Source of the DNA: Methylotenera sp.
Lineage (GTDB): Bacteria > Pseudomonadota > Gammaproteobacteria > Burkholderiales > Methylophilaceae
NCBI GenBank assembly: GCA_009693255.1
Contig: SHXQ01000009.1
Location: forward strand, 1 to 61,615
DNA length: 61,615 nt
Direction: 5' to 3'
Translations under genes and position numbers: made by a program
Notes under the pieces: generated by a model
Told to the model about the DNA's origin: nothing
What the model saw: the letters and a program-made list of their open reading frames with translations, nothing else
Database searches by the model: none
In this document: positions 13,676 through 34,912 of the stretch, in pieces
Numbering within the stretch: the first letter of the stretch is position 1
How the letters are laid out: each line of letters begins with the position of its first letter

Positions 13676-13682
13676 TTTGCAC

Positions 13683-16600: not shown

Positions 16601-16808
16601 TATGGCAGCCTTGCTCGGTGCACTACCGCTCATGCTGGGTTGGGGCGTAGGTTCGGATTTACGCCATCCTTTGGGCATTACCTTGGTAGGGGGCTTAATT
16701 GTCAGTCAGGTACTGACACTATTTACCACGCCTGTCATCTATCTGGCCTTAGAGGGTATTGCTAATCCGTTATCTAAGCCCAGAAAGGTTACAGGTAGTC
16801 AAGCATGA
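13683..16808 (+). CDS. mdtB: RND multidrug efflux permease subunit MdtB
   Basis: An inner-membrane RND proton antiporter that works as a heteromer with MdtC. The ATG at 13683 starts the family N-terminus ([20 protein letters not shown]); the open frame continues 12 codons upstream without homology. The protein has 1041 residues, twelve membrane helices in two repeats, two large periplasmic domains, and the proton-relay aspartates in [14 protein letters not shown]. It is much closer to MdtB than to MdtC in wording ([39 protein letters not shown]). It lies 7 nt after the adaptor gene. Confidence 0.94.
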
Positions 16809-16818
16809 GCGACCGCCG

Positions 16819-19800
16819 ATGAACCTTAGTGCGCCTTTCATCAGTCGTCCAGTAGCCACCACGTTACTGACCATAGGGTTAATGCTGGTGGGTGTGACTG
16901 CATTGCAATTGCTACCAGTCTCACCCCTACCGCGGGTAGATATTCCCACCATTAAAGTTTCGGCATCTCTGCCCGGCGCTAGCCCTGAAACCATGGCGTC
17001 AGCGGTAACTACACCGCTAGAACGCTCGCTTGGGCGTATTGCTGGTATCACGGAAATGACCTCGACGAGTGCGCTTGGTGCAACGCGCATTGTGTTGCAG
17101 TTTAATCTCAACCGCGACATTAACGGCGCAGCACGCGATGTGCAGGCGGCACTCAATGCTGCACAAAGTGCATTGCCCGCAGAAATGCCAAGCAAACCGG
17201 CTTATCGCAAGGTCAACCCAGGCGATGCGCCCATTATGATTCTTAGCCTGACCTCGGCCTCCATGACGCAAGGTCAATTATACGATGCCGCTTCGACGGT
17301 GATTGCGCAAAAGCTATCGCAACTCAAAGGCGTGGGAGATGTTGAAATTGGCGGCGGCGCTTTACCTGCGGTACGCGTTGATCTTAACCCCAATGCATTA
17401 CAACAATACGGCATCGGCTTGGATGATGTGCGTAAGGCCATTTCAACCGCCAACTCTAATCGGCCACAAGGTGGGTTGGAAGATGTCAGCGGCCACTGGC
17501 AAATTTCATCTAATGGCCAAGCGCGCAACGCGACTGACTACGCGGCGGTTATTATTAAATATCAAAACGGCGGCGCCGTTCGCTTGACCGATGTTGCTGT
17601 GGTGGCTGATTCAATAGAAGATGTCCGTACAGCCGGTTTAGCCAACGGCCAGCCGGCCGTGTTGGTAATAATTAAGCGTGAATCTGATGCTAATATAATT
17701 GCTACCGTCAATCGCATTAATCAAGTACTGCCCACTTTAAAAGCCTCTATACCGGCTGCCATAGACCTCACGGTGGCGATGGAGCGAACGAGCACAGTGC
17801 GCGCCGCCATCCGCGACGCTGGCTATACCCTCATCTTTGCCGTGCTACTTGTCATTTTAGTGGTGTTCATGTTTTTGCGTAATGGTCGTGCCGCACTGGT
17901 GCCTATTGTTGCCGTGCCAGTATCACTGATAGGCACATTTGCCGCCATGTATATGCTGGACTATAGCCTGAATACCTTATCACTGATGGCGCTGACGATT
18001 GCGGTGGGGTTTGTGGTCGATGATGCTATCGTCGTACTAGAAAATGTCTCGCGCCACATTGAAAGCGGCATGGCCCCCAAGCAAGCCGCCAACATTGGCG
18101 CTAAGGAAGTAGGCGTGACCGTATTGAGTATGACTTTGGTCATTATTGCGGTATTTATTCCCATGCTACTGATGGGGGGTTACGTCGGCCTTTTTGTGCG
18201 TGAGTTTGTCGTGACGCTGGTGGTGGCTATTCTGATTTCACTTGTGGTATCACTCACCACCGTCCCCATGATGTGCGCTTATTTACTCAAACCTACTGGC
18301 CCAGTGCAAACACGCCACTCCTTTTACCAGTGGAGTGAAGGTTTTTTTGACAGGCTGTTACAGGCCTACAAGCGTAGTCTTACCTTGGCGCTCAAGCACG
18401 CGCCACTGACCATGCTGATCTTGTTAGCCACGGTATGTTTGAATATTTTTCTCTACACTATTATTGCTAAAGGCTTTTTTCCGCCACAAGATACTGGTCA
18501 ACTCACTGGTCGTATTCAGGGCGACCAGAGCGCGTCATTCCAAGTGATGCAAAAAAAGTTAACTGACTTTATCAATATCATCCGCTTAGATCCTGCCGTT
18601 GAAACGGCCGTGGGCTATACCGGTGGGGGTGGGCAACGCAACTCAGGATCACTGTTTGTGAGTTTGAAACCCCTATCCGAAAGAAAAGAAGGCTCCGACA
18701 AAGTGATTACGCGCTTGCGCGATCGGTTAGCGAACGAGCCAGGGGCCACATTAATCCTCAACCCCGTGCAAGACATTCGCATCGGCGGCCGTCAAAGCCG
18801 CTCTTCCTATGAATACACCATACAGGCTGATGACCTTGAGCTACTGCACCACTGGGAACCCGCTATACGGCGAGCATTAGCCAAGGTACCAGAATTGCTC
18901 GATCTAGACACCGATGTACAAGATAAGGGTCTACAAACCACGCTAGCCATAGACCGCGATGCCGCCGCGCGCTTGGGCATTAGTGCTAAACAAATTGATA
19001 GCCTACTTAATAACGCCTTTACTCAGCGCTCTGCCTCAAGCATTTATCAATCACTCAATCACTACCAAGTGGTGATGGGGCTTGCGCCAGAATATGCTCA
19101 ATCAGCTAAGGCGCTCGACCATTTGTTTGTCAGTGGATCAGATGGTCATCAAGTGCCGCTCTCGATGGTAGCTTCTTATAAACAAACCGAAGCCGCTTTA
19201 CAAGTGAATCATCATGCACAATTTGCCGCCACCACCATCTCCTTTAATTTACCTAAAGGCGTATCACTGTCTAAGGCCACCCATTTGATTGATGAGGCCT
19301 TGCAAGACGTTGGTTTACCTACTTCTGTACGAGGTAGTTTTCAAGGCTCGGCAAAGGCCTTTAAGGAAATGTTGAACAATCAACCCATCCTCATTTTAGC
19401 CGCGTTTTTAAGTTTATATATCGTGCTTGGCGTGCTGTACGAAAGCTTAATTCACCCGCTGACCATACTCTCTACCCTGCCCTCAGCTGGAGTTGGCGCA
19501 TTGCTAGCGCTCATGTTGTTTCAAACAGGATTTAGCGTAATTGCCATGATAGGTATCTTTATGCTAATCGGTGTCGTCATGAAGAATGCCATCATGATGA
19601 TAGACTTTGCCCTTGACACACAGCGCAAGTCGTCAGCAAGCCCTGAACAAGCCATATTTGAAGCCTGCTTATTACGCTTTAGGCCAATTTTAATGACTTC
19701 TTTAGCTGCATTACTCGCCTCAATTCCACTGGCATTGGGTCACGGCGATGGTGCAGAAATGCGTCAGCCCTTAGGTATTGCCATTGGTGGCGGGCTGATT

Positions 19801-19947
19801 ATGAGTCAGCTACTCACACTCTATACCACCCCCGTCGTTTATCTTTACCTAGACCGATTGAGCTCTTGGATGGGGAATCTGTTTAAGCTCCAGTCCAACC
19901 ACTATGCCACGCATCCAACAAATGTCGTGGTAGACTCAGCATCATGA
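16819..19947 (+). CDS. mdtC: RND multidrug efflux permease subunit MdtC
   Basis: The partner permease of MdtB. The start at 16819 ([20 protein letters not shown]) avoids a 20-residue extension inside mdtB that has no homology. The 1042 residues match MdtC in the first periplasmic domain ([40 protein letters not shown]) and carry the relay aspartates in [15 protein letters not shown]. In the E. coli MdtBC complex the two subunits are not equivalent: MdtB moves protons and MdtC binds drugs. Keeping both genes suggests the same heteromeric design. The stop overlaps the outer-membrane factor start by 4 nt (ATGA). Confidence 0.94.
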
Positions 19948-21305
19948 CAGCGACTATTAAAAAACAAACGCTACGTGTACTTATTCTTCTAGGCATCAGC
20001 ACGCTCAGTACTGGCTGCAAAGTGCTCGGGCCTGATTATGCGCCGCCCGCCATCAACACACCAACTGCCTACAAAGAAGCCGCATTATCCACGACTACCG
20101 AGACGCCAGCTAAGGTGATGGACGAACGCTGGTGGACACTCTATGGTAACGACGAACTTGATCAGCTGATTGGACAAGTTGAGTTACAAAATTACTCGCT
20201 GCAAGCCGTTGAAGCTAGAACACGACAGGCACGCGCACTGGCAGAGATTGCTAAAGCGGCCAAATCGCCAACCGTGATTGCTGGCGGAAAAAACGATTTA
20301 GGTATTTTGGCCAGCTGGGAGATTGATTTATGGGGGCGCATTCAGCGCAATGTTGAGGCCAGTGGCGCATCTGCTGAGGCCAGTGTAGCTGATCTCGCAG
20401 CAATGAAATTATCCTTGCAAGCGCAGTTGACGCAAAACTACTTTAACTTACGCGTGCAAGATGCCGAAATTCGCTTATTACAAGACACGACGGCCGCTTA
20501 TGAACGCTTATTAAGAGTCACGCAAAATCAATATGCGGTAGGCGTAGCTGATCGAGGCAATGTGTTGCAAGTGCAAACGCAGCTCAACATGGCACAGTCA
20601 CAGATACAAGAAGCCCGAGTAAGTAGAGCACAATTAGAACATGCCATTGCGGTATTAATAGGAAAAGCACCGGCTGATTTTTCTATTGCCGTCGCCCCCA
20701 TCACAACCAGCGTTCCTGAGGTTCCTGCTGCTTTGCCAGCCGATTTATTGCTAAGACGCCCTGACATTGCCGCCGCCGAACGTAGAATGGCTGCCGCTAG
20801 CGCTAAAATTGGCGCGGCTGAGGCCTCTGCCTATCCGTCACTCGATTTATTTGCCGGCGTAAGTATCCGTAAAGGCCTGCTGGGCGGCGCCAAAGTACTA
20901 GCGCCCTTAGCTTCTGGTGGCACACCAGAAGCTAAGCGCAGTGAAGCATCGGCGGCCTATGACGAGATTGTTGCCAACTATCAGCAAACAGTGCTTAATG
21001 GCTTTCGTGAGGTGGAAGACAATCTAGCCAGCCTACAATCACTTAGCACAGCCGCTGACAACAAAGCCGAAGGGCTAAAAGCCGCGCGTGAGTCACTGAC
21101 TATTATGAATAACCAACAACAGGTCGGTATCATTAACCACCATGCCATGATGATGGCACAGACCGCTGCACTTGATAGTGAAAAAACTGGTTTAGATATA
21201 CTGGCTAAGCGCTTAGTCGCCAGCGTGAACTTAATCAAAGCATTGGGCGGTGGATGGCAATCTGCCGTGCTAAACACAGCAAATATTCCAGCGGCAACAA
21301 AGTAA
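19944..21305 (+). CDS. RND efflux outer-membrane factor lipoprotein (NodT/OpmB family), short barrel segments
   Basis: This TolC-like channel completes the efflux operon. The lipoprotein signal ends in LSTGC, followed by the family start [10 protein letters not shown]. The coiled helices of the periplasmic tunnel are well preserved ([58 protein letters not shown]). It has 453 residues, where relatives are usually nearer 480-500. The missing length seems to fall in the two places that form the outer-membrane strands: the stretch between AAKSP and [10 protein letters not shown], and the one between [10 protein letters not shown] and [10 protein letters not shown]. It may be a natural variant or carry internal deletions. 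The reading frame is intact. Confidence 0.9.
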
Positions 21306-21334: not shown

Positions 21335-21877
21335 TTACCAAGCGATGGTGGCTTCTATGCCAGCACCTTTACCATCAGCCCAAGGCACTAGTTGAACTTT
21401 GTTATTGAAAGCATCCGTAAAAAACCAGCCACTAGCGCTGCCCATTGCCGCGCCGATTGCTGCATCATACCAATGGTGCTTTTTAGCAGCCACTCGAGCA
21501 GATGCTGTGAGCGTAGCCAATGCATAAGCAGGCAGGCCTGCTTCCCAACCATAGCGCTTATACATAGTGGTTGCTGAGGCAAACGCGATGGCAGAATGCC
21601 CAGATGGGAAGCTATTATTATCACTATGATCTGGGCGCTCTTCGTGAACGACAGCCTTACCTAACAGCGATATCGCTTCAGCGGTACCCAAGCTATAGGC
21701 CGCTTCTCGTATACCTTCCCAGTCATCCTTAACTGCCGGTAATACCAGTGCTGTGCCCGCTAAAGTAACGGCAGTCAAGTCACTGATATTGGCCCAAGTT
21801 TTATGACTTCCCGCATTAGCCACAGGGCTAGCAATAAACGATAGTGATAATATCACCATTAAGAAACAAGATTTCAT
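21335..21877 (-). CDS. Exported PAP2-family (type 2 phosphatidic acid phosphatase) protein
   Basis: A 180-residue PAP2/haloperoxidase-fold phosphatase with an N-terminal signal peptide ending near SPVANA. The three acid-phosphatase motifs are present: KAVVHEERP, PSGHS, and ARVAAKKHHWYD. There are few further membrane segments, so it is probably periplasmic or loosely membrane-bound. PAP2 enzymes remove phosphate from lipid phosphates such as undecaprenyl-PP, lipid A or phosphatidic acid. The substrate cannot be read from the sequence. It is convergent with the efflux operon and divergent from a second PAP2 gene, with which it may share the 192-nt promoter region. Confidence 0.88.
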   Translation of the reverse strand: MKSCFLMVILSLSFIASPVANAGSHKTWANISDLTAVTLAGTALVLPAVKDDWEGIREAAYSLGTAEAISLLGKAVVHEERPDHSDNNSFPSGHSAIAFASATTMYKRYGWEAGLPAYALATLTASARVAAKKHHWYDAAIGAAMGSASGWFFTDAFNNKVQLVPWADGKGAGIEATIAW

Positions 21878-22069
21878 CGCTCACTCCTTCATAGTAAGAC
21901 TTGCTTGCAACAGTAATTGCAATATGAAATACTACCGCCCAAACCTATATAAAATAATGATTAACCTTAGTCAAAGCACTGTCAATAGGACTTTTCTATC
22001 GCACCATAACAGTATACCTCCTAATTGATATACAGTTTAGTTAAATGCCTTTTTGTGAGAAAAATAACG

Positions 22070-22729
22070 ATGCACGCGCGCCCTTATTGGCTATTACCTC
22101 TGCTCATGCTTATCGTCATAGCGGCTACGATTTCCTGTGGTTTTTCCTTAACACTCAATGGCCCAGCGAATTTTGATGCGCCTATATTGCTTTGGTTTCG
22201 CGACAATAACGACACGGCACGACTCGCTGGCTTACCTTGGATGACACAGTTTTGGCTAAACATGACCTGGCTTGGCAATACAACCCCCCGTTTGGTAATC
22301 GCTGGCCTGGCTATATTCGGCCTATTGCTGCTGCGTCGCGGGCGTGGCGCACTATTTGTGGCAGCGGTGTTAGTGAGTGGCATTACCCTATCCACCCTAA
22401 TCAAAGGCTGGGTAGGTCGGCCAAGACCACAACTAGTCGCACACCTAGATCAAGTCAGCTCTATGAGCTTTCCTAGCGGCCATGCACTAAACAGCACACT
22501 CTTTTATCTGGCAGTCACCCTCATCATCGCACCCTTAATAACACATCGTACGGCACGCTGGTTTTTGTACGGCTTGGCCATTAGCTCATCATTGGCGATT
22601 GGTATCTCAAGGGTGGCGCTGGGCGTACACTGGCCAAGCGATGTGCTGGCGAGTTGGGTAATTGCTTATTGCTGGTTAGGTTTATGGGTAATGTTAGCCA
22701 AGCACTATTGGCCAAAAGCGCTCACTTAA
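22070..22729 (+). CDS. Integral-membrane PAP2-family phosphatase
   Basis: A polytopic PAP2 phosphatase of 220 residues with about six membrane helices. The motifs are KGWVGRPRP, SFPSGHA and SRVALGVHWPSD, with catalytic histidines facing the periplasm in this family. The ATG at 22070 directly precedes the first hydrophobic helix; an upstream in-frame ATG at 22025 would add 15 residues. Substrates in the family include undecaprenyl pyrophosphate, PG-phosphate and lipid A phosphates. It is convergent with and overlaps by 4 nt the thymidylate-kinase-like gene on the other strand. It differs clearly from the neighbouring exported PAP2. Confidence 0.9.
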   Translation: MHARPYWLLPLLMLIVIAATISCGFSLTLNGPANFDAPILLWFRDNNDTARLAGLPWMTQFWLNMTWLGNTTPRLVIAGLAIFGLLLLRRGRGALFVAAVLVSGITLSTLIKGWVGRPRPQLVAHLDQVSSMSFPSGHALNSTLFYLAVTLIIAPLITHRTARWFLYGLAISSSLAIGISRVALGVHWPSDVLASWVIAYCWLGLWVMLAKHYWPKALT

Positions 22730-23454
22730 GAGTTTGATTGTGTGTAGCCACGTTCAGCTAAAGTTTTAGCTACTGCTGCTTTAGCCTCAGCCAGCACTTG
22801 TGCCAATGGCTTTGTACTGTCAATTTCTACAATGGGCGCACCATTGAATGTGAGTTGCGGGGTAATGGCCACTTTGTCACGTAGTAACTCTCGCCTATGA
22901 TCAGGCTTACGTGCACAGGCAGTATCTAAATCAACATTGAGTCGAATCACTAAATCCGGGCGAAAACTGGTCATCCATTCACACTGGGCGCGTTCACGCC
23001 TTGCTAACCAGCGCACCAAAAAATTTCCCGGTGCGCTTATGGATAAGCCAGTGCCATCAAACGCCCCAGGAAATTCCAATTGCGGGTAGCGATCGGTGAC
23101 GACAATTAATCCTTGGCGGCGTTGAGCCGTCATGTGTTTAAAGCGCCGTAATCGACGCATTGAAAACACATAAAGGATGAGTGCCACGAATAAACCCGGC
23201 GTCTTTTTTTCGCGATGGGCCTGCGTGCTCTTGGTTTTACGCACAATAAATTGATCTAGCAGTTTGCCAACTAGCGGCAATTTTGCGATAGTGCGGCCAA
23301 TATTACCCATTTGCTTGCCCAAATGGGCGGCCACGACTGGGCCGTAGCCTTGCATCCAGATAAGAATTTCTGCGCTAACAGTCGATTTTCCTGAGCCATC
23401 GCAGCCAATTATAGCAATGAGTGGCGCTAAGCCGAGGTCATTTCTTTTCTTCAT
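22726..23454 (-). CDS. Thymidylate-kinase-fold P-loop kinase, paralogue 1
   Basis: A 242-residue P-loop kinase with Walker A GCDGSGKST at 17-25, a TMK-like DRYPQ at about 121-125, and RLNVDLDTACARKPDH near 175. It is longer than true dTMP kinases (about 210). The extra part is a segment at residues 45-105 that is also present in two neighbours (24798-25532 and 25653-26369). Shared blocks include NIG, LP..GK, RRFKHM and FNGAPIVEID. The real target is unknown; thymidylate kinase is the fold, not necessarily the reaction. AGGAC before the ATG at 23454 supports the start. It lies opposite two PAP2 genes, near an ICMT-like methyltransferase and a ceramide locus, so a lipid or headgroup kinase is an attractive but unproven idea. 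Confidence 0.75.
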   Translation of the reverse strand: MKKRNDLGLAPLIAIIGCDGSGKSTVSAEILIWMQGYGPVVAAHLGKQMGNIGRTIAKLPLVGKLLDQFIVRKTKSTQAHREKKTPGLFVALILYVFSMRRLRRFKHMTAQRRQGLIVVTDRYPQLEFPGAFDGTGLSISAPGNFLVRWLARRERAQCEWMTSFRPDLVIRLNVDLDTACARKPDHRRELLRDKVAITPQLTFNGAPIVEIDSTKPLAQVLAEAKAAVAKTLAERGYTQSNS

Positions 23455-23882: not shown

Positions 23883-24623
23883 TTAAATAGTATTATCGAA
23901 AGTTTTGCTAAAATGTAGCAAACCTCGAGTTATAAGTTCGAACACCAAGGCAACAACCCAAACGTAATAACATGTCAAATCTTCAGGTAATTGTGTAAAG
24001 TCAAATCCGTGACGAGCAAAGTCAAAAAACATTACGGCACTGATTAACCAAAAAATTTTCTTATCTTCACGTCTAATCGCTCGTCGAACCCAGAACTTGT
24101 ATTTAGGTTTAATCCAGCCATTTAAACGAGGTAACAAAAATGGAACTTGTTCAGCCCATTTAGTATGTGAATTACCAAATTTTTCCCGTAAAAATTCTTC
24201 TTCGTATACTGAAATTCGCTCGTAAATTAAAGCGAAAATTAAAAAAGTTAGTGTTCCAAATACCCAGCTACCAGAGAGCATGGCTATGCCAGTAAAATTC
24301 ACAATACGGCCAACATATAGTGGATTTCGCACTAAAGAATACGGGCCTGTTGTATTTAATTCAGCAGCAATCGTCTGAACTTTGGTATTGCCAGAAGTGC
24401 CCAGTGCTGCAAACCCACTAGTGATAATTCTTATAAGTGCACCAAAACAAGCAACGCTCAAGGACAACCAAAACCAAATTTTATTGGCTTCGACTGATTC
24501 AAAAGGCCCTGTTGATCCAGTATAGAAAGCGATAGCTGTTCCAATAAAAATAACGCTAGTTAGATAATATCCGCGTATCTGAAACAAGGTCTTACCAGTT
24601 CGTGCAAGTTCTAATTGATACAT
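23883..24623 (-). CDS. ICMT/PEMT-like integral-membrane methyltransferase
   Basis: A 246-residue polytopic protein. Near residue 92 it has GPYSLVRNPLYVGRI, and further on YEEEFLREKFGNSHTKWAEQVPFLLP. This is the S-adenosylmethionine-binding core shared by isoprenylcysteine carboxyl methyltransferase and phospholipid methyltransferase. Hydrophobic helices flank the core, and a further hydrophobic C-terminal region follows. Bacterial members methylate small or lipid substrates; Leptospira LmtA, for example, methylates lipid A phosphate. The target here is unknown. The gene and its flanks (about 23850-24800) are visibly AT-richer than their neighbours, suggesting separate acquisition. It sits between paralogous kinase genes. 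Confidence 0.8.
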   Translation of the reverse strand: MYQLELARTGKTLFQIRGYYLTSVIFIGTAIAFYTGSTGPFESVEANKIWFWLSLSVACFGALIRIITSGFAALGTSGNTKVQTIAAELNTTGPYSLVRNPLYVGRIVNFTGIAMLSGSWVFGTLTFLIFALIYERISVYEEEFLREKFGNSHTKWAEQVPFLLPRLNGWIKPKYKFWVRRAIRREDKKIFWLISAVMFFDFARHGFDFTQLPEDLTCYYVWVVALVFELITRGLLHFSKTFDNTI

Positions 24624-24797: not shown

Positions 24798-25532
24798 ATG
24801 TTCTTTTTATCAAATCACTACCCCGTGCATACTTTTAAAAACGTCTTTGCCGTAGTGGGTTGCGATGGTTCAGGCAAATCAACTTTAACAGCTGACCTCA
24901 TTACTCATTTAGCCCAGCAGAGGCAAGTTGAATGGCTGTACCTTGGTCAATCTTCTGGCAATATTGGCGAGTGGATTAGAAACCTGCCTATAATAGGCGC
25001 ATCATTTGGGCGTTATTTACTGCGCAAAGCGGAGCGGGCTCACAACAACAATAAAGAAACTTCTTCGCCAGACACCTTAACTGCGCTGGTGATTTTTTTG
25101 CTTTCCTTATGGCGTGCGCTTAAGTTTCGTCGCATGTTGAAGCTTGCTCGCCGTGGTGTTTTGGTCATTGCCGATCGCTACCCACAAGCAGAGGTATCAG
25201 GCTTTTATTTTGATGGGCAAGGCCTCAATTCAGCTAATGCCAAAAGCTGGTTAGCTCGCCAACTATTAAAACAAGAAACGCGGCTTTACCAATGGATGGC
25301 AAGCCATATACCTACACTGCTCATACGCCTTAATATTGATGCTGAAACTGCCCATGCCCGCAAACCTGATCACAAACTTGCTATACTACGCGATAAGGTG
25401 AGGGTGATTCCAACGCTGCATTTTAATGGTGCACCTATTTTAGATTTAAATGGTCGCGACCCTTACCCACAAGTATTGGATGCTGCACTCACTGCTATAA
25501 ATGCAGCTGCTAAATTGCCGCAACACTTATAA
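24798..25532 (+). CDS. Thymidylate-kinase-fold P-loop kinase, paralogue 2
   Basis: A 244-residue paralogue of the kinase at 22726-23454. It has Walker A GCDGSGKST at 21-29, LGQSSGNIGEWIRNLPIIG, RRMLKLARRGVLVIADRYPQ with the DR motif at about 126, and RLNIDAETAHARKPDH. It ends with the shared block HFNGAPILDLNG. No signal peptide or membrane helix stands out, so it is probably cytoplasmic. The next kinase gene begins 120 nt downstream on the same strand. The 174-nt upstream gap is very AT-rich and holds no other feature I can name. The substrate is unknown. Confidence 0.75.
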   Translation: MFFLSNHYPVHTFKNVFAVVGCDGSGKSTLTADLITHLAQQRQVEWLYLGQSSGNIGEWIRNLPIIGASFGRYLLRKAERAHNNNKETSSPDTLTALVIFLLSLWRALKFRRMLKLARRGVLVIADRYPQAEVSGFYFDGQGLNSANAKSWLARQLLKQETRLYQWMASHIPTLLIRLNIDAETAHARKPDHKLAILRDKVRVIPTLHFNGAPILDLNGRDPYPQVLDAALTAINAAAKLPQHL

Positions 25533-25592: not shown

Positions 25593-25652
25593 GGCGACAA
25601 TAAAAATTGCTAATCTGATTAACTTTCAGTTAAGTTGAATACTGAGCCTACT

Positions 25653-26369
25653 ATGTCTGCATCTATTAATCACCATGACGAAAGTCATCTTCTTACTGGT
25701 GTTGTCGCCGTTGTTGGCTGTGATGGCACCGGCAAATCTACCCTAACTGCTGATTTACTGGCTTACCTGCAAAGCAAGGGCATTGCTGAGCGTCGCTATC
25801 TTGGCCTAGTGTCTGGCGAAATGGGCGATAAAATTAAGCTACTGCCTATTTTTGGTGTGTGGCTAGAGCGGCATCTTTCGGCCAAGGCACAGCGGGCGCA
25901 AGACATGAAGCAGAAACTGCCCGGCACGGGCACTGCCATCATTATGCATATACTTTCTTTATGGCGCGTGAGGCAACTTAAGCTCGTGATGCGCTTGTCA
26001 CAACGAGGGGTGTTGGTCATCGCAGATCGCTATCCGCAGGCAGAAATTGCTGGGTTTCGTTATGATGGGCCTGGCATTACTGTTACTAGCGAAGATAATT
26101 GGCTGCTACGCATGCTTGCAGCACGCGAGCTAAAACTGTATCAGTGGATGGCGCAGCAAAAACCAGTCTTGATTATTCGCCTCAACATTGATGCGGAAAC
26201 AGCTTACTCGCGCAAACCAGACCATAGCTTAGCCGAGTTACGTGACAAAATTTCCGTGATGCCACGTCTAAACTTTAATGGCACTCAACTGGTTGATATT
26301 GATGCCAGAGCAGCCTATGTAGAAGTGTTAGCTAACGCCTTAAAAGCAGTTAAATCTGCTATTAAATAA
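25653..26369 (+). CDS. Thymidylate-kinase-fold P-loop kinase, paralogue 3
   Basis: The third family member, 238 residues from the ATG at 25653. An in-frame TTG at 25635 is less likely. Walker A is GCDGTGKST, with Thr replacing the Ser of the other two. The LGLVSGEMGDKIKLLPIFG segment, VLVIADRYPQAEIAGF and RLNIDAETAYSRKPDH are all conserved, as is the final NFNGTQLVDID. All three paralogues keep the catalytic P-loop and DR motif, so none looks dead. Divergence among them suggests different substrates or partners rather than a recent duplication. It precedes the LpxO-like gene by 110 nt. Confidence 0.75.
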   Translation: MSASINHHDESHLLTGVVAVVGCDGTGKSTLTADLLAYLQSKGIAERRYLGLVSGEMGDKIKLLPIFGVWLERHLSAKAQRAQDMKQKLPGTGTAIIMHILSLWRVRQLKLVMRLSQRGVLVIADRYPQAEIAGFRYDGPGITVTSEDNWLLRMLAARELKLYQWMAQQKPVLIIRLNIDAETAYSRKPDHSLAELRDKISVMPRLNFNGTQLVDIDARAAYVEVLANALKAVKSAIK

Positions 26370-27322: not shown

Positions 27323-27829
27323 ATGCAGTTTTATTCTATCCGTCATTGTTCGCTTTGTTTGATTGCAGCCCTATTACTCACCAGTTCACTTAGTCCGTTG
27401 GCTTTTGCTGGTTCGGTAGCCGATGACATTCATGGGCTATGGATAAACAATAAAGACACTGAGAAACAAAAATTTGCCGTGATGGTTGAAGATTGCGGTA
27501 GCAAGCTTTGTGGTCGCCTATATTGGTTAAAAAAACCTTTATCCGCTAACGGGCTGCCTAAGCGAGATAAACATAACTCCAATGAAGCTCTCCGTGACCG
27601 TCCTTTGTGTGGGTTACAGATTTTAACTGGCTTTCAATACGCGAGCGGCAACACTTGGCATTCTGGCGAAATTTATAACCCTGACGATGGGCTTACTTTT
27701 AGTAGCACCATGAAGTTAGCGCCTGAGGGGTCACTTAAAATTCGAGGCTATGTAGGCATCTCATTGCTTGGTAAGACCTTGGAGTGGGTGAGACCCACTG
27801 AGGAAATTACTAGATGCAAATCACTGTAA
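27323..27829 (+). CDS. Secreted DUF2147-domain protein
   Basis: A 168-residue protein with a signal peptide ending near SPLAFA. The DUF2147 domain is recognisable from IHGLWINNKDTEKQKF at its start, CGSKLCGRLYWLKKP, LCGLQILTGF, and the closing RGYVGISLLGKTLEWVR. The domain is predicted to be a small beta-barrel like a lipocalin. Members are periplasmic and of unknown function. AGAGAG precedes the ATG. A hairpin terminator separates it from the LpxO-like gene. It ends 20 nt from the flippase gene, which is convergent. A lipid-binding role beside the ceramide genes is only a guess. Confidence 0.85.
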   Translation: MQFYSIRHCSLCLIAALLLTSSLSPLAFAGSVADDIHGLWINNKDTEKQKFAVMVEDCGSKLCGRLYWLKKPLSANGLPKRDKHNSNEALRDRPLCGLQILTGFQYASGNTWHSGEIYNPDDGLTFSSTMKLAPEGSLKIRGYVGISLLGKTLEWVRPTEEITRCKSL

Positions 27830-27849: not shown

Positions 27850-29187
27850 TTAAGCTGATTTTTCCTTTTTCCACATAAGCAGTAACATGCCTACCAGTGT
27901 AAGTGCTGCTGCAATAATGGCAGCCAGCCCAGCACCTATCAAACCAAGCTGACGAGTTAATATGTTTAGCATTAATAAATAAATAACGGTACATGCCATG
28001 TGTAATTGTAAAGCTTTGCTTGCATTCCCCATGGCATACAACGCAGATCGAATTGGCGATGCTGCTAAATCTATTGATGCCGCCAGTAGCATTAAAGTAA
28101 GCACGTCTTTAGCTCCAATAAATTGATTGCCGAGCAGGCTGCTTAGTAAATGTTCGCCAAAGAAATAACTTGTTAGAACAAATAATAAACCTAATGCACC
28201 GCCCAAAATAGCAGTGCGGTAGGCGACAAGATTAAAGGCATTGCTACCTTGGTGCCAACTTCTTGAGAGGTCAACAAAAACGACTTGGCGGATTAAAATA
28301 GCTGGTTTAGCCAGCATACTGGATAATTCTCTTGCCAAACGCAGCAGGCCGGCTTCCGCAGGCCCTAATAAATAGCCGACTAAAACAGTGGTGATGTGCT
28401 TGGGCAAAACATCTAAGTTTGATTGCCAGTAACTAACCCAAAGAAAATTTCGTAAGCCATCGAAATCACTCAATTTAGCATCTTTAAATCTTGCCCCAGC
28501 CAATGCTTGTTTGATGTGTGTATTGTATTTATGCCTTGCATGCCACAGCATATAAATATTCTCCGCAGCATAAGCGCTAGCCCATATGACTGCAAATACT
28601 AATATAGGCGCATTTAGCCACCAAGCAACGGCTACACCTAAAAAGCGTATGGTTGGCGCTATCGCCATCTGCTTACCTAAAATATCAAAACGATCATACA
28701 AGCGCAAAATCCCTGCGGCTGTTCCGGTTCGTGTGGTTAGAAGAACTAGGCTATAGCCCATTAAGATCATGACTTGTAAATTGTTCATGCCCATGGACGG
28801 GCCTGCAAATGGCGCTAAAAAAAATGCTAACAGCGTTGCAGCTATAGATGCTTGCTTGTCTATGCGACGGCATAATTTAATTAAACGACCTAGAGTAGGT
28901 TTGTCAGAAATGTCATGCGCTGGCACACCGAAGCGCACCACGGCGTCGACAGATCCAAAATCAAACAGTGCACGGATTAAAAGGACATAAGTCTGCATCA
29001 ATATGACCATGCCGAATTCGGCCGGCCCAAGCGATCGTGCCATTAAAGCGGTGGCACCAAAGGCCATGATGGCTGCCGCACCGCGACCTCTGATTAAAAT
29101 CCAGAAGTTAGCCAGCACGCGGTGCATGGGATTGTCGGTGTTTGAGCGGTCTGCAGATCTTTTCACTAGCGGCCTATGTTCGATCAA
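27850..29187 (-). CDS. Polysaccharide/lipid flippase (Wzx/MATE-like membrane protein)
   Basis: A 445-residue polytopic inner-membrane protein with about twelve hydrophobic helices. The N-terminal pattern LMARSLGPAEFGMVILMQTY is typical of the oligosaccharide flippase group (PF01943/PF13440-like). Such proteins move lipid-linked sugars across the inner membrane. The ATG at 29187 is used here; an in-frame ATG at 29127 is also possible. It lies 134 nt downstream of the serine palmitoyltransferase gene on the same strand, with repeat-like hairpins between. The intended cargo may be a modified sphingolipid or a glycan; the sequence does not say. Confidence 0.82.
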   Translation of the reverse strand: MIEHRPLVKRSADRSNTDNPMHRVLANFWILIRGRGAAAIMAFGATALMARSLGPAEFGMVILMQTYVLLIRALFDFGSVDAVVRFGVPAHDISDKPTLGRLIKLCRRIDKQASIAATLLAFFLAPFAGPSMGMNNLQVMILMGYSLVLLTTRTGTAAGILRLYDRFDILGKQMAIAPTIRFLGVAVAWWLNAPILVFAVIWASAYAAENIYMLWHARHKYNTHIKQALAGARFKDAKLSDFDGLRNFLWVSYWQSNLDVLPKHITTVLVGYLLGPAEAGLLRLARELSSMLAKPAILIRQVVFVDLSRSWHQGSNAFNLVAYRTAILGGALGLLFVLTSYFFGEHLLSSLLGNQFIGAKDVLTLMLLAASIDLAASPIRSALYAMGNASKALQLHMACTVIYLLMLNILTRQLGLIGAGLAAIIAAALTLVGMLLLMWKKEKSA

Positions 29188-29321: not shown

Positions 29322-30503
29322 TTAAGCTTTTGCGCGTAACTTTGCAAAAGCGGCACAAACTGCGTCTATTTGTTCTGATGTGTGTGCGGCGCTGACGCTG
29401 CAACGAATTAACGACACACCGTTGGGCGTAGCTGGTGGCAGCATGAGGTTGACATACACCCCTAGCTTCAACAAACTATCCCAGAATTGCAACGCCTCTA
29501 CCTTGCCTTCAAGCACCACCGCAACAACCGGGCTGGGTGGGCCGCCTAAGGTATACCCTAGTGCGGCTAAGCCGCTATGGAGCTGCTTAGCATTGTCACG
29601 CAAGCGTTGACGCAAATCTTTACCTGATTCAAGTATTCGCAATGCCTGTCTGGCTGAAGCAATAGTCGCTGGCGCAGGCGACGCCGTAAAAATATAAGGG
29701 CGGCTTGCGTAACGAATTAAATCTAATTCAGGCAAATTGCTGACGCAAAAACCGCCTGCACAACCCAAACTTTTACTAAAGGTGCCGACAATAAAGTCCA
29801 CATCGTCCATGATGCCTAATTCTTCAACCAACCCACAACCACGCTCACCAAGCACACCAAAAGAATGGGCTTCATCAACCATAAGATAGCCACCAAACTC
29901 ACGCTTTGCAGCTACGATTTCTTTCAGTGGCGCGCGGTCGCCCAGCATGCTATAGATGCCTTCTACCACGATCAATGCATCCGCCGCACGTGGGCCAAGA
30001 CGGCGTAAACGTTTTGCTAAATCTTCTGCGTTGTTATGGCGAAAGCGTATAGTTTCTGCACCACCCAAACGGCAACCATCGTAAATACTGGCATGGCAGT
30101 CGGCGTCTATTAGCACCACGTCAGCTGGGCCAGCAATAGCAGCGATCATGCCTAGGTTGGCTTGGTAGCCAGTTGAAAACACAATCGCGTCACGTTTACC
30201 GTAAAATGCCGCCATTTCTTGTTCTAACTTGCGGTGCCCAGAATAACTACCGTTGGCCATGCGTGAACCAGTAGTACCCGTACCCTCATGCTCTAAAGCC
30301 AAGCGCGCACTGGCAATACACTCGGGATTAAAAGTTAGTCCTAAGTAATTATTGGTGCCGGCCAGTATGGTGTGCTTTCCATGAATAATGCCCTCAGTCG
30401 GCGAAATGATTTTTTCTATCTGTACCGCAAACGGATCAATACCAAGTGCACAGAGCTCTGCTCGACCTTCCGTTAACGACTCAAACTTAGTAAAAAGTCC
30501 CAT
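29322..30503 (-). CDS. spt: Serine palmitoyltransferase (alpha-oxoamine synthase)
   Basis: This PLP enzyme condenses serine with a long acyl thioester to give 3-keto-sphinganine, the first step of sphingolipid synthesis. The 393 residues carry the alpha-oxoamine synthase signatures: DADCHASIYDG with the PLP-stacking histidine near 137, VDEAHSFGVLGERG near 209, and the Schiff-base lysine at about K244 (GTFSKSLGCAGGF). AONS (BioF) and KBL are close relatives. SPT is chosen because the gene overlaps by 1 nt a dedicated ACP gene and sits with a ceramide-reductase-like gene, an acyl-ACP ligase and a ceramide-synthase-like gene. No biotin gene is nearby. It is probably soluble, like other bacterial SPTs. 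Confidence 0.88.
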   Translation of the reverse strand: MGLFTKFESLTEGRAELCALGIDPFAVQIEKIISPTEGIIHGKHTILAGTNNYLGLTFNPECIASARLALEHEGTGTTGSRMANGSYSGHRKLEQEMAAFYGKRDAIVFSTGYQANLGMIAAIAGPADVVLIDADCHASIYDGCRLGGAETIRFRHNNAEDLAKRLRRLGPRAADALIVVEGIYSMLGDRAPLKEIVAAKREFGGYLMVDEAHSFGVLGERGCGLVEELGIMDDVDFIVGTFSKSLGCAGGFCVSNLPELDLIRYASRPYIFTASPAPATIASARQALRILESGKDLRQRLRDNAKQLHSGLAALGYTLGGPPSPVVAVVLEGKVEALQFWDSLLKLGVYVNLMLPPATPNGVSLIRCSVSAAHTSEQIDAVCAAFAKLRAKA

Positions 30504-30751
30504 TATGCATGACCTATAATTTTTTCAACCTGCTTGGCAAGATCTCCCACGGTTTTCACGTCCGGCAAGATGCTTACTGGAATTGAGATATCAAAACTAT
30601 CTTCAACAAACAATAGCAATTCCATAATCTGCAGTGAGTCCAAATCCAGATCGCCAACCAACTCGGTATTTTCATCAACCTCGAAAAGCCCTTTTGTGTA
30701 TGGCGCTAGGCCTTTGCTTAAGTCGGCCATAATGCGCTGATATTCAGTCAT
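30503..30751 (-). CDS. Dedicated acyl carrier protein for ceramide synthesis
   Basis: An 82-residue acidic ACP with the phosphopantetheine serine at about S39 in DLDLDSLQIMELLL. It starts 8 nt after the reductase-like gene and ends overlapping spt by 1 nt, so it is translated together with them. In Caulobacter an ACP in the same position serves sphingolipid synthesis rather than general fatty acid synthesis. Here it presumably carries the acyl group loaded by the ligase at 31787-33535 for SPT or the N-acyltransferase. The housekeeping acpP is not in this window. Confidence 0.9.
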   Translation of the reverse strand: MTEYQRIMADLSKGLAPYTKGLFEVDENTELVGDLDLDSLQIMELLLFVEDSFDISIPVSILPDVKTVGDLAKQVEKIIGHA

Positions 30752-30759
30752 AAAGTTTC

Positions 30760-31749
30760 CTATTTTTTCTTGTGATTCTTATCAAAAATGTTTGCCAGCC
30801 CGCGCGCTAAGTCTATAGTAGGTTGCCAACCCGTCATGCGTATAATTTCGCTATTATCGCACATCCAATCCGTATGCGTAATCTCGCGAATTTTACCAGG
30901 CGTCAACATAGGCGCATATCCGAACAACTTGGCCGCAGCAAAATTGGTCCATGCTACGAGCTTCAATAGTGTGATTGGAATGGGGATACGACGGACCACC
31001 CCCCCATGACGCAGCACACGTCCGCTGATATCTAGCACGCTATCCCAATCATAGCCACCTGCATGACCATCATCTAATTCAAAGGTCTGTCCATAAGCGT
31101 TGTCTTGCGCTAACCAGCGCACCATGACCGCCACTAAGTCTTCCACATGAACCAAGGAAAATCGTCCATTGGCGCCAGCCGGTAATGGTGCGAACCCTTT
31201 GGCCATACTTTTAAATAGCGGCAGCAACTCACGGTCTCCCGGTCCATAAACGGCAGGTGGGCGTAGTATGGTCCAGCGCATATCTTCTGCGACCGTTTTG
31301 ATGGCTGCTTCGCCACGCCATTTACTGCCCGCATAATGAGACAGCTCAGGCATGCGCGCTGCCAGCGTTGAGATGAGCAGAAAACGTGGCTTAACAATTT
31401 GAGCAGCGCAAGCTTGGGCAACATGCAGTGCCCCCGCTTCATTGATTTGATCAAAGTCGGCACGGCTAGCGCCCCGCACGGCACCGGCACAATGAATCAC
31501 CGCATTAACATCCGCCACCAAGGAATGCAGCGCAGCAATATTATTGAGGTCTCCGGCAATCCACTTAACACCAGGTAGATTAGGTGGAACGCGCCCGCCA
31601 TGTGGGCGATACAGGGCGCGAACCTGCCATCCGGCATTGCTTAACTGTTTTATTAGCGTAGTGCCGATAAAACCAGTAGCGCCAGTGACGGCGATCTCAT
31701 TATGGCCAATCAATGGTGGGGTAGTACTCGCAGTCAACGGCTTTTTCAT
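30760..31749 (-). CDS. NAD(P)-dependent epimerase/reductase, CerR-like (3-oxo-ceramide reductase)
   Basis: An extended short-chain dehydrogenase of 329 residues. The Rossmann loop GATGFIG is near 23-29 and the active-site residues are S127, Y139 and K143 (LLISTLAARM, YAGSKWRGE). The ATG at 31749 is preferred to the upstream GTG at 31758 because the AGGA lies better for it. In bacterial sphingolipid clusters a protein of this family reduces 3-oxo-ceramide to ceramide (CerR of Caulobacter). Location between the acyl ligase and the ACP-spt pair supports that role. A sugar-nucleotide epimerase would be the other reading of the fold. It is not the eukaryotic-type 3-ketosphinganine reductase. Confidence 0.82.
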   Translation of the reverse strand: MKKPLTASTTPPLIGHNEIAVTGATGFIGTTLIKQLSNAGWQVRALYRPHGGRVPPNLPGVKWIAGDLNNIAALHSLVADVNAVIHCAGAVRGASRADFDQINEAGALHVAQACAAQIVKPRFLLISTLAARMPELSHYAGSKWRGEAAIKTVAEDMRWTILRPPAVYGPGDRELLPLFKSMAKGFAPLPAGANGRFSLVHVEDLVAVMVRWLAQDNAYGQTFELDDGHAGGYDWDSVLDISGRVLRHGGVVRRIPIPITLLKLVAWTNFAAAKLFGYAPMLTPGKIREITHTDWMCDNSEIIRMTGWQPTIDLARGLANIFDKNHKKK

Positions 31750-31786
31750 ACCAGGCACTTTCCTATCAAGTCTTGTTTAACATCAG

Positions 31787-33535
31787 TTATGACTCGTGGC
31801 TCGCCTTGCTTTTTCGCCTTAATAGGTAGTCTTTTCGTGCGCCAGACCGTGACAGCTTGCCAGAAGAGGTACGAGGCAAGGTGTGCCTTGGCACAAGTTC
31901 GATTAAACAGCTAATACCCAACTCTTCATGAATTTCACGATGCAGTTGTTGCGTTAAGTGGTGCTGCTCATCCAAATCGGTGATATTGCATTGCACGATT
32001 AATACGGCGACATCCTCTTGTTCTGGACCTGGTATGGAGACCGCCGATGCGTCTCCCGAACGTAATTCAGGTTGTCGTGTAGCAATAGCTTCTATATCTT
32101 GTGGCCAAATATTGCGGCCGTTAATAATCAACATGTCTTTATGACGTCCTGTCACGACAATGTTGCCATCAATCAAATAACCCAAATCGCCAGTATCTAA
32201 CCAACCATCTGCAGACAGCACCAGCCGCGTTTGCTCAGGCAGCTCAAAATAGCCCGACATCACACTGGGCCCACGCACATTGATTCTGCCTATATGCATA
32301 TCCACCATGGTGTTGCCGCGCTCATCGCGTATCACGACTTCGTGTTTTGGCAGTACGGGGCCACAACGCACAAAACTGCTGCCGGTATTTGGACTCACCT
32401 TAGTCGCAATAAAATTATCTGCCAAATCGTCAGAATCAAGCCAATCAACGACAACGCCAGTCCCTAGCGGGGCAAAACTAATAGCTAAAGAGCTTTCTGC
32501 CATGCCGTAGCTAGGCACGAAGGCTAAAGCATTGAAGCCCGCTGGAGCAAGCAGTTCAGAAAAGCGATCTGTCAGCTCTACATGAATAGGCTCAGCGCCT
32601 ATGCCAGCGACGCGCCAAGCACTTAAATCATACAACGCGATGTCTTCAGGGCGTAATCGACGCACACAAAGCGCATAGCCAAAGGGTGGGCTGAATGAGA
32701 TGGTGGCTCGTGAATTAGTCATCAACTCTAGCCAGCGTCTTGGGCGCATAGCAAAGTCACGGGTATCTAAATAGTCAATAGAACGCTGGGTGGCCATGGG
32801 TGCTAATAAGCAACCGACTAAGCCCATGTCGTGATAAAACGGTAGCCAAGAAACGCAGCGGTCATCTAGGCGCACATCTAATCCGTGTGCAGATCCAACC
32901 AAGTTGGCCATGACCGCTTGCTGGGTGATTATCACGCCGCGCGGAAAGCCCGTACTGCCCGAGGTATATTGTAGATAGGCCGTTTCTCTAGGACCACTTG
33001 CTTGTAACTGGATGTTTTGTACTGGTAAATCGTCGAAAGCGCTCGCTGCGCCGACGAATTTTAGCCCTAAGCCCTCAGTTGCTTCAGTTAGAAATGGGAG
33101 TAATTGGCTGGACGATACTGCCACTGATGCGCGGCAACCCTGCAACAAGCCATGCAACTGATTAACATACGCCTTATGACCACCAACATGAATCACCGCT
33201 GGCAGTGCCACTGGTACTAACCCCGCATACTGACAGGCAAAAAAGAAACGTAAAAAGTCAGGATTGGTTTCCGCCACGATGGCCACGCGTGCGCCGCGCT
33301 CTAACGGAAAAGACAGCAGACGCTTGGCTAAAGTTCGCGCCTCCTCGCGTAGCGTTCGATAAGGAAACACCGTTACCAACTTACCGCTACCGGCGTAAAA
33401 GTTTGCGCCTGATTCGCCTTGCGCGGCATAATCCAAGGCCTCTGCCAAGGTGGAGAAGTCTGCTAAACGTAACAATGACGCACTTAGCGTCGGCGTTGCT
33501 AACAAGGTAATATTAATATCCGGCACTTGACTCAA
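31787..33535 (-). CDS. Fatty acyl-AMP ligase / acyl-ACP synthetase
   Basis: An adenylate-forming enzyme of 582 residues that activates a fatty acid as acyl-AMP, here most likely to load the adjacent ACP. The core motif YLQYTSGSTGFPRGV is near residue 187. The C-terminal hinge is TGDLGYLIDGN with GRHKDMLIINGRNIWPQDIE, the FAAL-type wording, and the final TSSGKLSR lysine is present. It starts with TTG at 33535, supported by AAGGA 6 nt upstream; no ATG is suitably placed. It is the first gene of the minus-strand ceramide operon and is divergent from the ceramide-synthase-like gene. Confidence 0.88.
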   Translation of the reverse strand: MSQVPDINITLLATPTLSASLLRLADFSTLAEALDYAAQGESGANFYAGSGKLVTVFPYRTLREEARTLAKRLLSFPLERGARVAIVAETNPDFLRFFFACQYAGLVPVALPAVIHVGGHKAYVNQLHGLLQGCRASVAVSSSQLLPFLTEATEGLGLKFVGAASAFDDLPVQNIQLQASGPRETAYLQYTSGSTGFPRGVIITQQAVMANLVGSAHGLDVRLDDRCVSWLPFYHDMGLVGCLLAPMATQRSIDYLDTRDFAMRPRRWLELMTNSRATISFSPPFGYALCVRRLRPEDIALYDLSAWRVAGIGAEPIHVELTDRFSELLAPAGFNALAFVPSYGMAESSLAISFAPLGTGVVVDWLDSDDLADNFIATKVSPNTGSSFVRCGPVLPKHEVVIRDERGNTMVDMHIGRINVRGPSVMSGYFELPEQTRLVLSADGWLDTGDLGYLIDGNIVVTGRHKDMLIINGRNIWPQDIEAIATRQPELRSGDASAVSIPGPEQEDVAVLIVQCNITDLDEQHHLTQQLHREIHEELGISCLIELVPRHTLPRTSSGKLSRSGARKDYLLRRKSKASHES

Positions 33536-33692
33536 CTGGCTTCCTTAACTTAGAGCACTATTCAAAATATCTAGAGAAATATTTACGCGTAACAGGTCAA
33601 GCAAAAGCGGCCGCCTCAATTAGTGGCAATTATATAGCAGAAGGTCGCACATATATCATGTATATAGTAAACGAGTTTTCTTTCGCGTCATA

Positions 33693-33702
33693 TTGACGTC
33701 AA
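33693..33702. promoter_or_regulatory. Palindrome in the divergent ceramide promoter region
   Basis: TTGACGTCAA is a perfect 10-bp palindrome in the 213-nt gap between the divergent acyl-ligase and N-acyltransferase genes. It could be an operator shared by both sides. No clear -35/-10 pair with standard spacing is seen. A TAAAAT at 33713-33718 is too close to the TTGACG to pair with it. Confidence 0.3.
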
Positions 33703-33748
33703 CTAATTATGGTAAAATTTTTCAACCGCAATATTTTTATCTAAGATT

Positions 33749-34912
33749 ATGACCGCCGCCATTAAAAACTCAGTTGCACTACGTATTGTGCCGGTCTCAG
33801 GAAAAGCAGACCTGGATCAATTCATTCGCGTTGCGGCAGTTATTTTTAAAGATGATCCCCATTGGATCTCACCGCTCTTGATTGAGCGGCACATGCATCT
33901 TTCAACCAAGCACAATCCGTATTTTCAGCACGCGCAATGGCAGGCGTGGATTGCCTGGCGCGGCGATCAGCCGGTAGGCAGGATTAGCGCGCAAATTGAC
34001 GCGCTGCATCTTGAGCGACACGGCGACGCTACCGGCTTCTTTGGCATGCTAGATGCTGAGGATAATGCGGAAACCTTTGCTGCGCTTATTAGCACTGCCG
34101 AGCAATGGTTGCGCGAGCAAGGTATGCGTCGCATACGCGGACCCTTCAATCTTTCGATCAACGAAGAAATGGGTTTGCTGATTGAAGGCTTCAACACGCC
34201 ACCCGTATTTATGATGAGTCATGCTTTACCCTATTATCGTCAGCATATCGAGCAATGCGGCTACCACAAAGCAGTGGATGCGCTGGCTTACTTAATCGCC
34301 CCCAATTTCGTAGCGCCGCCGGTTATGCAAAGATTGGTGGCGGCGGCGTCCAATCGGGTGCGCGTTAGACCCCTAGACCACACACGCTTCAACGAAGAAA
34401 TCTCGATGTTACGTGATATCTTTAATGATGCCTGGACAGAAAATTGGGGCTTCGTCCCATTTACTGAGGCTGAATTTCAAGAGCTAGGCAAAAATCTGAG
34501 ATTTTTACTAGACAATGAATATATACAGATTGCTGAAGTGGACGGTGAGGCCGCCGCCTTTATTATCGGCATGCCTAATATCAATGAAGCGATTCGTGAT
34601 TTGAACGGTAAATTGTTTCCCTTTGGCTGGTTGAAATTACTGTGGCGACTTAAGGTACGCCGCCCCAACACCGCGAGGGTTCCGCTGATGGGAGTGCGGC
34701 GGAAATTTCAACGCACGCGGCTTGGACCGGGCTTGGCTTTTTTGATTATTGATGCGGTGCGTACTGAGTTACACAAACGCGGCGCGAAAATACTCGAATT
34801 GTCATGGATATTAGAAGACAATGCGGGCATGCGTAACATCATCGAATCGATTGGTGGTGAAGCTTATAAGCGCTACCGCGTTTACGAGCGCCAGCTTGAC
34901 GAACTTCACTAA
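33749..34912 (+). CDS. GNAT-fold N-acyltransferase, bacterial ceramide synthase-like (bCerS)
   Basis: A 387-residue protein of the GNAT-type superfamily often annotated simply as N-acetyltransferase. Recognisable blocks are FKDDPHWISPLLIERH, FGMLDAEDNAETFAAL, GMRRIRGPFNLSINEEMGL, FNTPPVFMMSHALPYYRQHI, and the C-terminal ELSWILEDNAGMRNIIES. This is the family that I associate with the Caulobacter ceramide synthase, which N-acylates 3-keto-sphinganine. It is divergent from the acyl-ligase-cerR-acp-spt operon, which strongly supports the role. The assignment rests on remembered family wording and context. A structure-based or sequence search would settle it. Confidence 0.75.
   Translation: MTAAIKNSVALRIVPVSGKADLDQFIRVAAVIFKDDPHWISPLLIERHMHLSTKHNPYFQHAQWQAWIAWRGDQPVGRISAQIDALHLERHGDATGFFGMLDAEDNAETFAALISTAEQWLREQGMRRIRGPFNLSINEEMGLLIEGFNTPPVFMMSHALPYYRQHIEQCGYHKAVDALAYLIAPNFVAPPVMQRLVAAASNRVRVRPLDHTRFNEEISMLRDIFNDAWTENWGFVPFTEAEFQELGKNLRFLLDNEYIQIAEVDGEAAAFIIGMPNINEAIRDLNGKLFPFGWLKLLWRLKVRRPNTARVPLMGVRRKFQRTRLGPGLAFLIIDAVRTELHKRGAKILELSWILEDNAGMRNIIESIGGEAYKRYRVYERQLDELH

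Follow-up and report, generated by a model that had tools for sequence, protein, structure and literature searches.

A ceramide-synthesis locus in Methylotenera lies within a larger conserved gene island

Why should a member of the methylotroph genus Methylotenera carry genes for making ceramide, and what do the genes that accompany them do? These questions arise from a contig of 61,615 nucleotides (SHXQ01000009.1 of assembly GCA_009693255.1; here the window, to which all coordinates refer), on which five genes for ceramide synthesis lie between positions 29322 and 34912. We find that this five-gene core is of a known kind and that, judged from the sequence, it belongs to a conserved island of about 22 kb. 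It is this larger island that merits attention, with three kinases in common with Escherichia coli and a resistance-nodulation-division (RND) pump where many other loci have a second LptF/LptG pair. In the explanation that we consider probable, a ceramide-synthesis locus like those of alpha-, beta- and gammaproteobacteria is joined to a module for decoration and export of the lipid.

The five-gene core

The core consists of four genes on the minus strand and a fifth that diverges from them:

spt, 29322..30503, minus strand: serine palmitoyltransferase (SPT), a pyridoxal phosphate enzyme of 393 amino acids, assigned by model NF047599, a match to structure 2x8u and a tree
acpR, 30503..30751, minus strand: dedicated acyl carrier protein (ACP), PF00550 over cut-off, DSL motif with Ser39
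cerR, 30760..31758, minus strand: ceramide/3-oxo reductase of the short-chain dehydrogenase/reductase (SDR) family, PF01370
aasR, 31787..33535, minus strand: acyl-ACP synthetase for AcpR, NF006624
bcerS, 33749..34912, plus strand: GNAT-type ceramide synthase, YghO orthologue

The reading frames and the gaps of 37, 8 and -1 nt given in the original prediction were borne out: aasR and cerR are 37 nt apart if cerR starts at the ATG at 31749 (28 nt from a GTG at 31758), cerR and acpR are 8 nt apart, and acpR and spt overlap by 1 nt. SPT is 59% identical to its counterpart in the E. coli ceramide locus annotated spt, the ligase AasR 48%, the reductase 42% and the GNAT protein 53% (over 379 amino acids, to YghO), and the E. 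coli counterparts of the last two sit where PMC9386255 lists epi and aca (yghO). AcpR has 34% identity to the ACP encoded before spt in E. coli and keeps the phosphopantetheine serine of the DSL motif. CerR matches only generic NAD epimerase and SDR models; bCerS matches GNAT weakly (25.9 bits, cut-off 20.7) and matched no NCBIfam model. A 32-sequence alignment comprises bCerS relatives located beside SPT, and such a relative lies inside the fetched stretch in 52 of 80 named SPT loci, these being the best 80 of at least 551 relatives (588 stretches), nearest to the query and not a fair sample. The members of an aasR/acpR/spt/cerR/bcerS locus (the SPT family, a dedicated ACP, and AasR, CerR and bCerS homologues) are all present, and the gene order goes beyond chance, because the same order with divergent bCerS occurs in E. 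coli and recurs in many named genomes. The first gene of the operon had been described as an acyl-AMP/ACP ligase; the family stands, with 766 bits against the fatty acyl-AMP ligase model NF006624 (cut-off 600), and the protein is better named AasR, after the acyl-ACP synthetase reported to act specifically on the dedicated ACP (PMC9386255).

The identity of the core as a ceramide locus depends on its alpha-oxoamine synthase, which could in principle be BioF, KBL or another amino-ketone enzyme that makes an autoinducer or sulfonolipid precursor, in an operon that does not serve ceramide. These enzymes have a common fold, and models of other alpha-oxoamine synthases give the protein about 120-330 bits. 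Of the NCBIfam models that it matches, however, it exceeds the cut-off of only one, the betaproteobacterial SPT equivalog NF047599 (630 bits, cut-off 500), and falls below those of BioF (326 bits, cut-off 426), glycine C-acetyltransferase or KBL (315, cut-off 460), CqsA-type enzymes and ALAS. Its best solved relatives are serine palmitoyltransferases (2x8u, 439 bits). In a tree of 46 rows, a branch with 100/99 support parts 33 SPTs, the window's among them, from 13 other rows (E. coli BioF and KBL, ten best hits from the same family and the window genome's own BioF-like protein), and a smaller tree of 26 SPT and 7 other rows gave the same split. The window genome encodes, in addition, a protein that falls with E. 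coli BioF, and the neighbours of SPT are AcpR, CerR and bCerS. We regard an enzyme other than SPT as barely credible here; the clustering with BioF or KBL that would have overturned the original assignment was not seen.

From studied relatives, AasR would load a fatty acid onto AcpR and SPT would condense acyl-AcpR with serine to 3-oxo-sphinganine, after which bCerS would add the amide acyl chain and CerR would reduce the ketone. The order of these last two steps is disputed in print, and N-acylation before reduction has been argued (PMC11087976).

The core is of a known kind because the same dihydroceramide genes, yghO included, are listed for E. coli BL21, Caulobacter, Nitrosomonas eutropha and others (PMC9386255). 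The pathway is thus not new in betaproteobacteria, having been described for N. eutropha (PMC9386255). Wide occurrence of SPT has also been published, Spt-like proteins being reported in metagenome-assembled genomes (MAGs) of 38 phyla (PMC11334938).

The island around the core

The claim of a complete ceramide core pathway in a methylotroph-type betaproteobacterium stands at the level of genes and needs revision in extent, since the feature reaches far past the five genes; the new part is the island outside the coordinates first given. From the core outward it comprises:

27850..29187, minus strand: MOP/polysaccharide-type flippase, directly downstream of spt; PF01943 over cut-off, 25% identical to YghQ (5e-36)
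27323..27829, plus strand: DUF2147 protein with an N-terminal hydrophobic segment; PF09917, kept in L058, L059, L061, L062 and L064
26453..27238, plus strand: Asp/Arg-hydroxylase family protein, OlsC/LpxO-like, candidate acyl 2-hydroxylase; PF05118 over cut-off
25635..26369, plus strand: kinC, YghR orthologue, predicted thymidylate-kinase fold
24798..25532, plus strand: kinB, YghS orthologue; 56% identical to YghS, clade support 98/95
23883..24623, minus strand: PEMT/ICMT-type methyltransferase, LmtA-like, in the variable kinB-kinA slot; PF04191 over cut-off
22726..23454, minus strand: kinA, YghT orthologue; 54% identical to YghT, clade support 90/95, or 95/91 with one long-branch row
22025..22729, plus strand: PAP2 phosphatase, membrane protein; PF01569 over cut-off, adjoins kinA in genome G132 too
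21335..21877, minus strand: second PAP2 phosphatase; PF01569 over cut-off, present in G132 too
19944..21305, plus strand: outer membrane factor of the RND pump; TIGR01845, 302 bits (cut-off 210)
16759..19947, plus strand: RND permease, MdtC-like; NF007905, 1494 bits, below cut-off 1774
13647..16808, plus strand: RND permease, MdtB/MuxB-like; NF007798, 1574 bits, just below 1584; subfamily NF033617, 1290 over 1250
12359..13675, plus strand: RND periplasmic adaptor, MdtA/MuxA; NF008589, 396 bits (cut-off 391)

The conserved order is core, flippase, DUF2147 protein, hydroxylase, kinC, kinB, variable slot, kinA, two PAP2 genes and RND operon. This block recurs in same-genus genomes; in G132 the transketolase gene (tkt), which in the window lies 0.2 kb from bcerS, is on another contig, and the RND operon keeps its side. 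Two genomes, G123 and G129, only seemed to bear kinases without SPT, because the contigs that carry their flippase, DUF2147, hydroxylase and kinase genes end before SPT. The hydroxylase passed neither of the curated models for its likely relatives (OlsC, 220 bits against a cut-off of 450; LpxO, 111 against 500), and the methyltransferase scores 118 bits with the LmtA model, below the cut-off of 325. L077 (12822-13646), L202 (2858-3748) and L200 (8630-9430) share a conserved protein (E. coli WP_097487596) that matched no Pfam or NCBIfam model at the thresholds applied; this type lies near kinB in Methylotenera-type islands and has no match in the window.

Among studied loci, that of E. coli BL21(DE3) and many other strains (yghO; aasR-cerR-acpR-spt; yghQRST) agrees with the window in the five core genes, their order and the divergent bCerS, and it also has a flippase and the three kinases, the core and kinases standing side by side in BL21(DE3). 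The E. coli cluster differs in having lptG, lptF, ytfJ and a hypothetical gene that have no match in the window; the hydroxylase, the two PAP2 proteins and the RND pump of the window are in turn not annotated in the E. coli stretches examined. The ceramide/CPG2 region of Caulobacter crescentus (CC_1168-CC_1152) likewise combines the five ceramide families with a potential flippase (PMC11324152), but neither a CpgB-type kinase nor a second LptF/LptG was found in the window genome, nor a CpgD-like gene in the window. N. eutropha, a betaproteobacterium with the five ceramide genes (Neut_0458-0461, Neut_1100; PMC9386255), has bCerS apart from the others and is reported to have CPG genes (PMC11324152); the SPTs of Nitrosomonadaceae, in a tree without N. 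eutropha, fall in another clade than that of the window.

Kinases and pump: a proposed role in head group and export

We propose, from the company these genes keep, that the kinases build a head group and that the pump exports the lipid. An LpxO/OlsC-like enzyme would hydroxylate an acyl chain, phosphorylations by YghR, YghS and YghT would build the head group in place of CpgB, the MOP flippase would turn the lipid over the inner membrane, and an MdtABC-type RND pump, not a second LptF/LptG pair, would move it towards the outer membrane.

The kinases form three clades in a tree from which 11 of 57 rows were left out as copies or fragments, and each clade has one member in all 12 loci where three kinases were recovered. 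Walker A, DR.PQ and RKPDH motifs are invariant in 32 kinases of these 12 loci, one divergent row from L133 being excluded. The predicted structure of kinC has a thymidylate-kinase fold by VIA-align comparison. Thymidylate kinase itself was rejected as an identity, since the kinases score only 22.6-27.9 bits with the curated dTMP kinase model (cut-off 83.25), though the kinC fold matches. The ceramide kinase of Caulobacter, CpgB, carries an LCB5/DAGK domain (PMC10331486). No kinase of that type was found in the seven SPT-bearing genomes of the genus, in each of which the sole DAGK_cat hit was one open reading frame of 293-294 amino acids; in the window genome, the one of the seven in which it was scanned, this frame is NAD kinase. 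Neither the window nor 15 loci of the genus matched the Azotobacter vinelandii CpgD-like candidate, where "CpgD-like" refers to a Pfam domain and gene position in Azotobacter and not to a match with the protein of Caulobacter.

Between kinB and kinA the gene content varies: the slot holds a methyltransferase in the window and in L081 (a 64% homologue in the same slot), a glycosyltransferase in G132 and a carbamoyltransferase in L086. The corresponding slot of G148 (L062, 2594-13167) contains a glycosyltransferase, an NTP transferase, two dehydratase/epimerases, a DegT aminotransferase, transketolase-type pieces and a carbamoyltransferase; these genes resemble a deoxysugar pathway within a sphingolipid island.

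The pump operon is of the MdtABC/MuxABC type, with an adaptor, two different RND permeases and then an outer membrane factor, which adjoins PAP2 in L202, L081 and L213. Its adaptor exceeds the model cut-off, yet the permeases, whose best matches are MdtB/MuxB and MdtC, stay under theirs. RND permeases stand beside SPT in 8 of the 80 named loci; each of these 8 belongs to the 44 whose flanks extend 10 kb either way, and LptF/LptG lie in reach in none of them as against 24 of the 36 others with full flanks. Within the genus, the permeases were found in all four SPT genomes tested and were missing at E 1e-150 in seven of eight without SPT; in the eighth (G137) the contig with the pump breaks off at the island's PAP2 gene. 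Only one adjacent LptF/LptG pair, and no second, was found in the window genome (84.7% complete). The route of bacterial sphingolipids from the inner to the outer membrane is described as not known (PMC11324152). An RND-family protein encoded beside lipid-synthesis genes has been proposed as a lipid transporter in BstABC sterol transport of Methylococcus capsulatus (PMC10942540), a likeness of idea only, as cargo and partners differ.

A more specific version, which we hold tentatively as a joint claim, is that YghR, YghS and YghT are three thymidylate-kinase-fold lipid kinases that replace CpgB as a second and unrelated means of phosphorylating ceramide, that slot genes set variable head groups, that the RND pump replaces LptF2/LptG2, and that E. 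coli K-12 retains in yghQRST what is left of a sphingolipid island after loss of its core at an IS5 element. The slot genes would then be a lipid phosphate methyltransferase here and glycosyltransferases, deoxysugar enzymes or a carbamoyltransferase in relatives. DNA of yghR-T matches 4695 of 5426 complete E. coli genomes, 4559 of them over at least 80% of its length, and the K-12 annotation of yghQRST is still putative. In K-12 MG1655 (L207, 5044-8409) IS5 separates yghO from a short yghQ, at the position that the core and lptGF occupy in BL21.

Only the five-gene core might be related to sphingolipids, the kinases, PAP2 proteins, hydroxylase and RND pump being neighbours by common descent or island transfer that do other work in drug efflux or in nucleotide or envelope metabolism. 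RND and PAP2 families have many functions, few associations are independent once the tree is counted, and G132 has a second RND operon without a core within the 17 kb fetched there. Yet RND genes accompany SPT in three different relative placements: on the PAP2 side of the core (window, G132, L081, L084), on the bCerS side (L082, L085, L086) and on the flippase side (L087-L090). The kinases occur with two separate SPT clades, and of eight kinase-bearing genomes of the genus five have SPT, two carry flippase, DUF2147 and hydroxylase genes on contigs that end before SPT, and one is represented by a short fragment only. On this evidence we consider mere neighbourhood unlikely. The second RND operon of G132 is itself MdtABC-like and lies near the end of contig C1 (L214, 9000-16974), away from the island.

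Several observations weigh against a decoration and export module in the form proposed. Three changes suffice for the kinase trait on the SPT tree of 46 loci, and two each for the hydroxylase and RND traits (the window row was set by hand; absence of CpgD-like and LptF/LptG genes was checked by search, the other traits were taken from matches). Branches with good support leave two independent pairs, too few for any association to reach significance with relatedness counted, and simple Fisher tests are optimistic, the loci being related. Kinases stand with LptF/LptG beside SPT in E. coli, L092 and L133. MdtABC-type pumps elsewhere are ordinary drug exporters by their NCBIfam names, and absences from the window genome are provisional at 84.7% completeness. 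The usual acceptor for enzymes with the thymidylate-kinase fold is a phosphate and not a lipid alcohol, so that of these kinases could be a nucleotide or sugar. Finally, in L082 and L085 the pump occurs with a CpgD-like gene and the kinases are absent, a combination suggesting that the head group comes from either of two modules, kinases or CPG genes, with a single exporter serving both.

Distribution and genomic setting

SPT exceeds the cut-off in 7 of 52 genomes of the genus, the window's included; in an eighth the core is present and a contig end truncates SPT. None of the 105 genomes sampled from other genera of the family has SPT over the cut-off, which upholds the expectation that ceramide genes are unusual in this methylotroph family. 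Of 369 genomes drawn from the class, again with the window's, 21 have it, and a search with the kinase alignment found kinases in at least one, a lower bound because at most 7 candidates per genome were scored. Judged by titles and the openings of abstracts, none of the papers matched for sphingolipid with Methylotenera or Luteibacter, or for yghQRST/yghO, dealt with this subject, and in the methylotroph literature sphingolipid was unmentioned among the matches listed.

The window is contig 9 of a 1.40-Mb assembly whose genome also encodes a PQQ-dependent alcohol dehydrogenase of the methanol/ethanol family (over cut-off). The adjoining tkt is 83-97% identical to genes of same-genus genomes where it was recovered whole; we take the contig to be genuine because the best of these matches reaches 97%, which rules out contamination of the bin. 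Two same-genus contigs with the same locus are public records, identical over the compared length, labelled Methylotenera sp. and Sulfuritalea sp.; the second, JAIPCR010000033.1 (L079; G139 C49), is assigned to the window's genus in the genome set, and its label looks wrong.

Base composition bears no clear mark of recent transfer (GC 42-50% in 4-kb steps over the window), and a clean insertion site beside tkt was not found. This flank is rearranged, because none of uvrA, MFS, ssb or the island genes occurs in the 2.5-17 kb before tkt in G137 and eight relatives (which yielded no SPT, kinase or pump, the pump having been tested in five), and because tkt is not adjacent to bCerS in the island-bearing G121 and G132 either. 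Downstream of tkt, two different types of glyceraldehyde-3-phosphate dehydrogenase occupy one synteny slot across relatives, a gap gene with 46-47% identity to the window GapA in L038, L068-L071, L073 and L075 and one with 92-96% identity in L059, L060, L063, L065, L067, L074 and L076.

Could the locus be present and no longer functional, an island being lost from a small genome? Its presence is patchy (7 of 52), clusters are incomplete in some MAGs, and E. coli K-12, with IS5 where other strains have the core, provides an example of such loss. The incomplete clusters stop at contig ends, however, and in the window the frames are open, the conserved residues are retained and the five core proteins share 67-95% identity with their counterparts in genus relatives, so that we judge decay very unlikely.

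Our findings extend ceramide-synthesis genes to a methylotroph genus for which we found no literature report of them. The island around these genes offers a hypothesis for how sphingolipids may be transported from the inner to the outer membrane, and it offers another for the role that YghQ, YghR, YghS and YghT may play.

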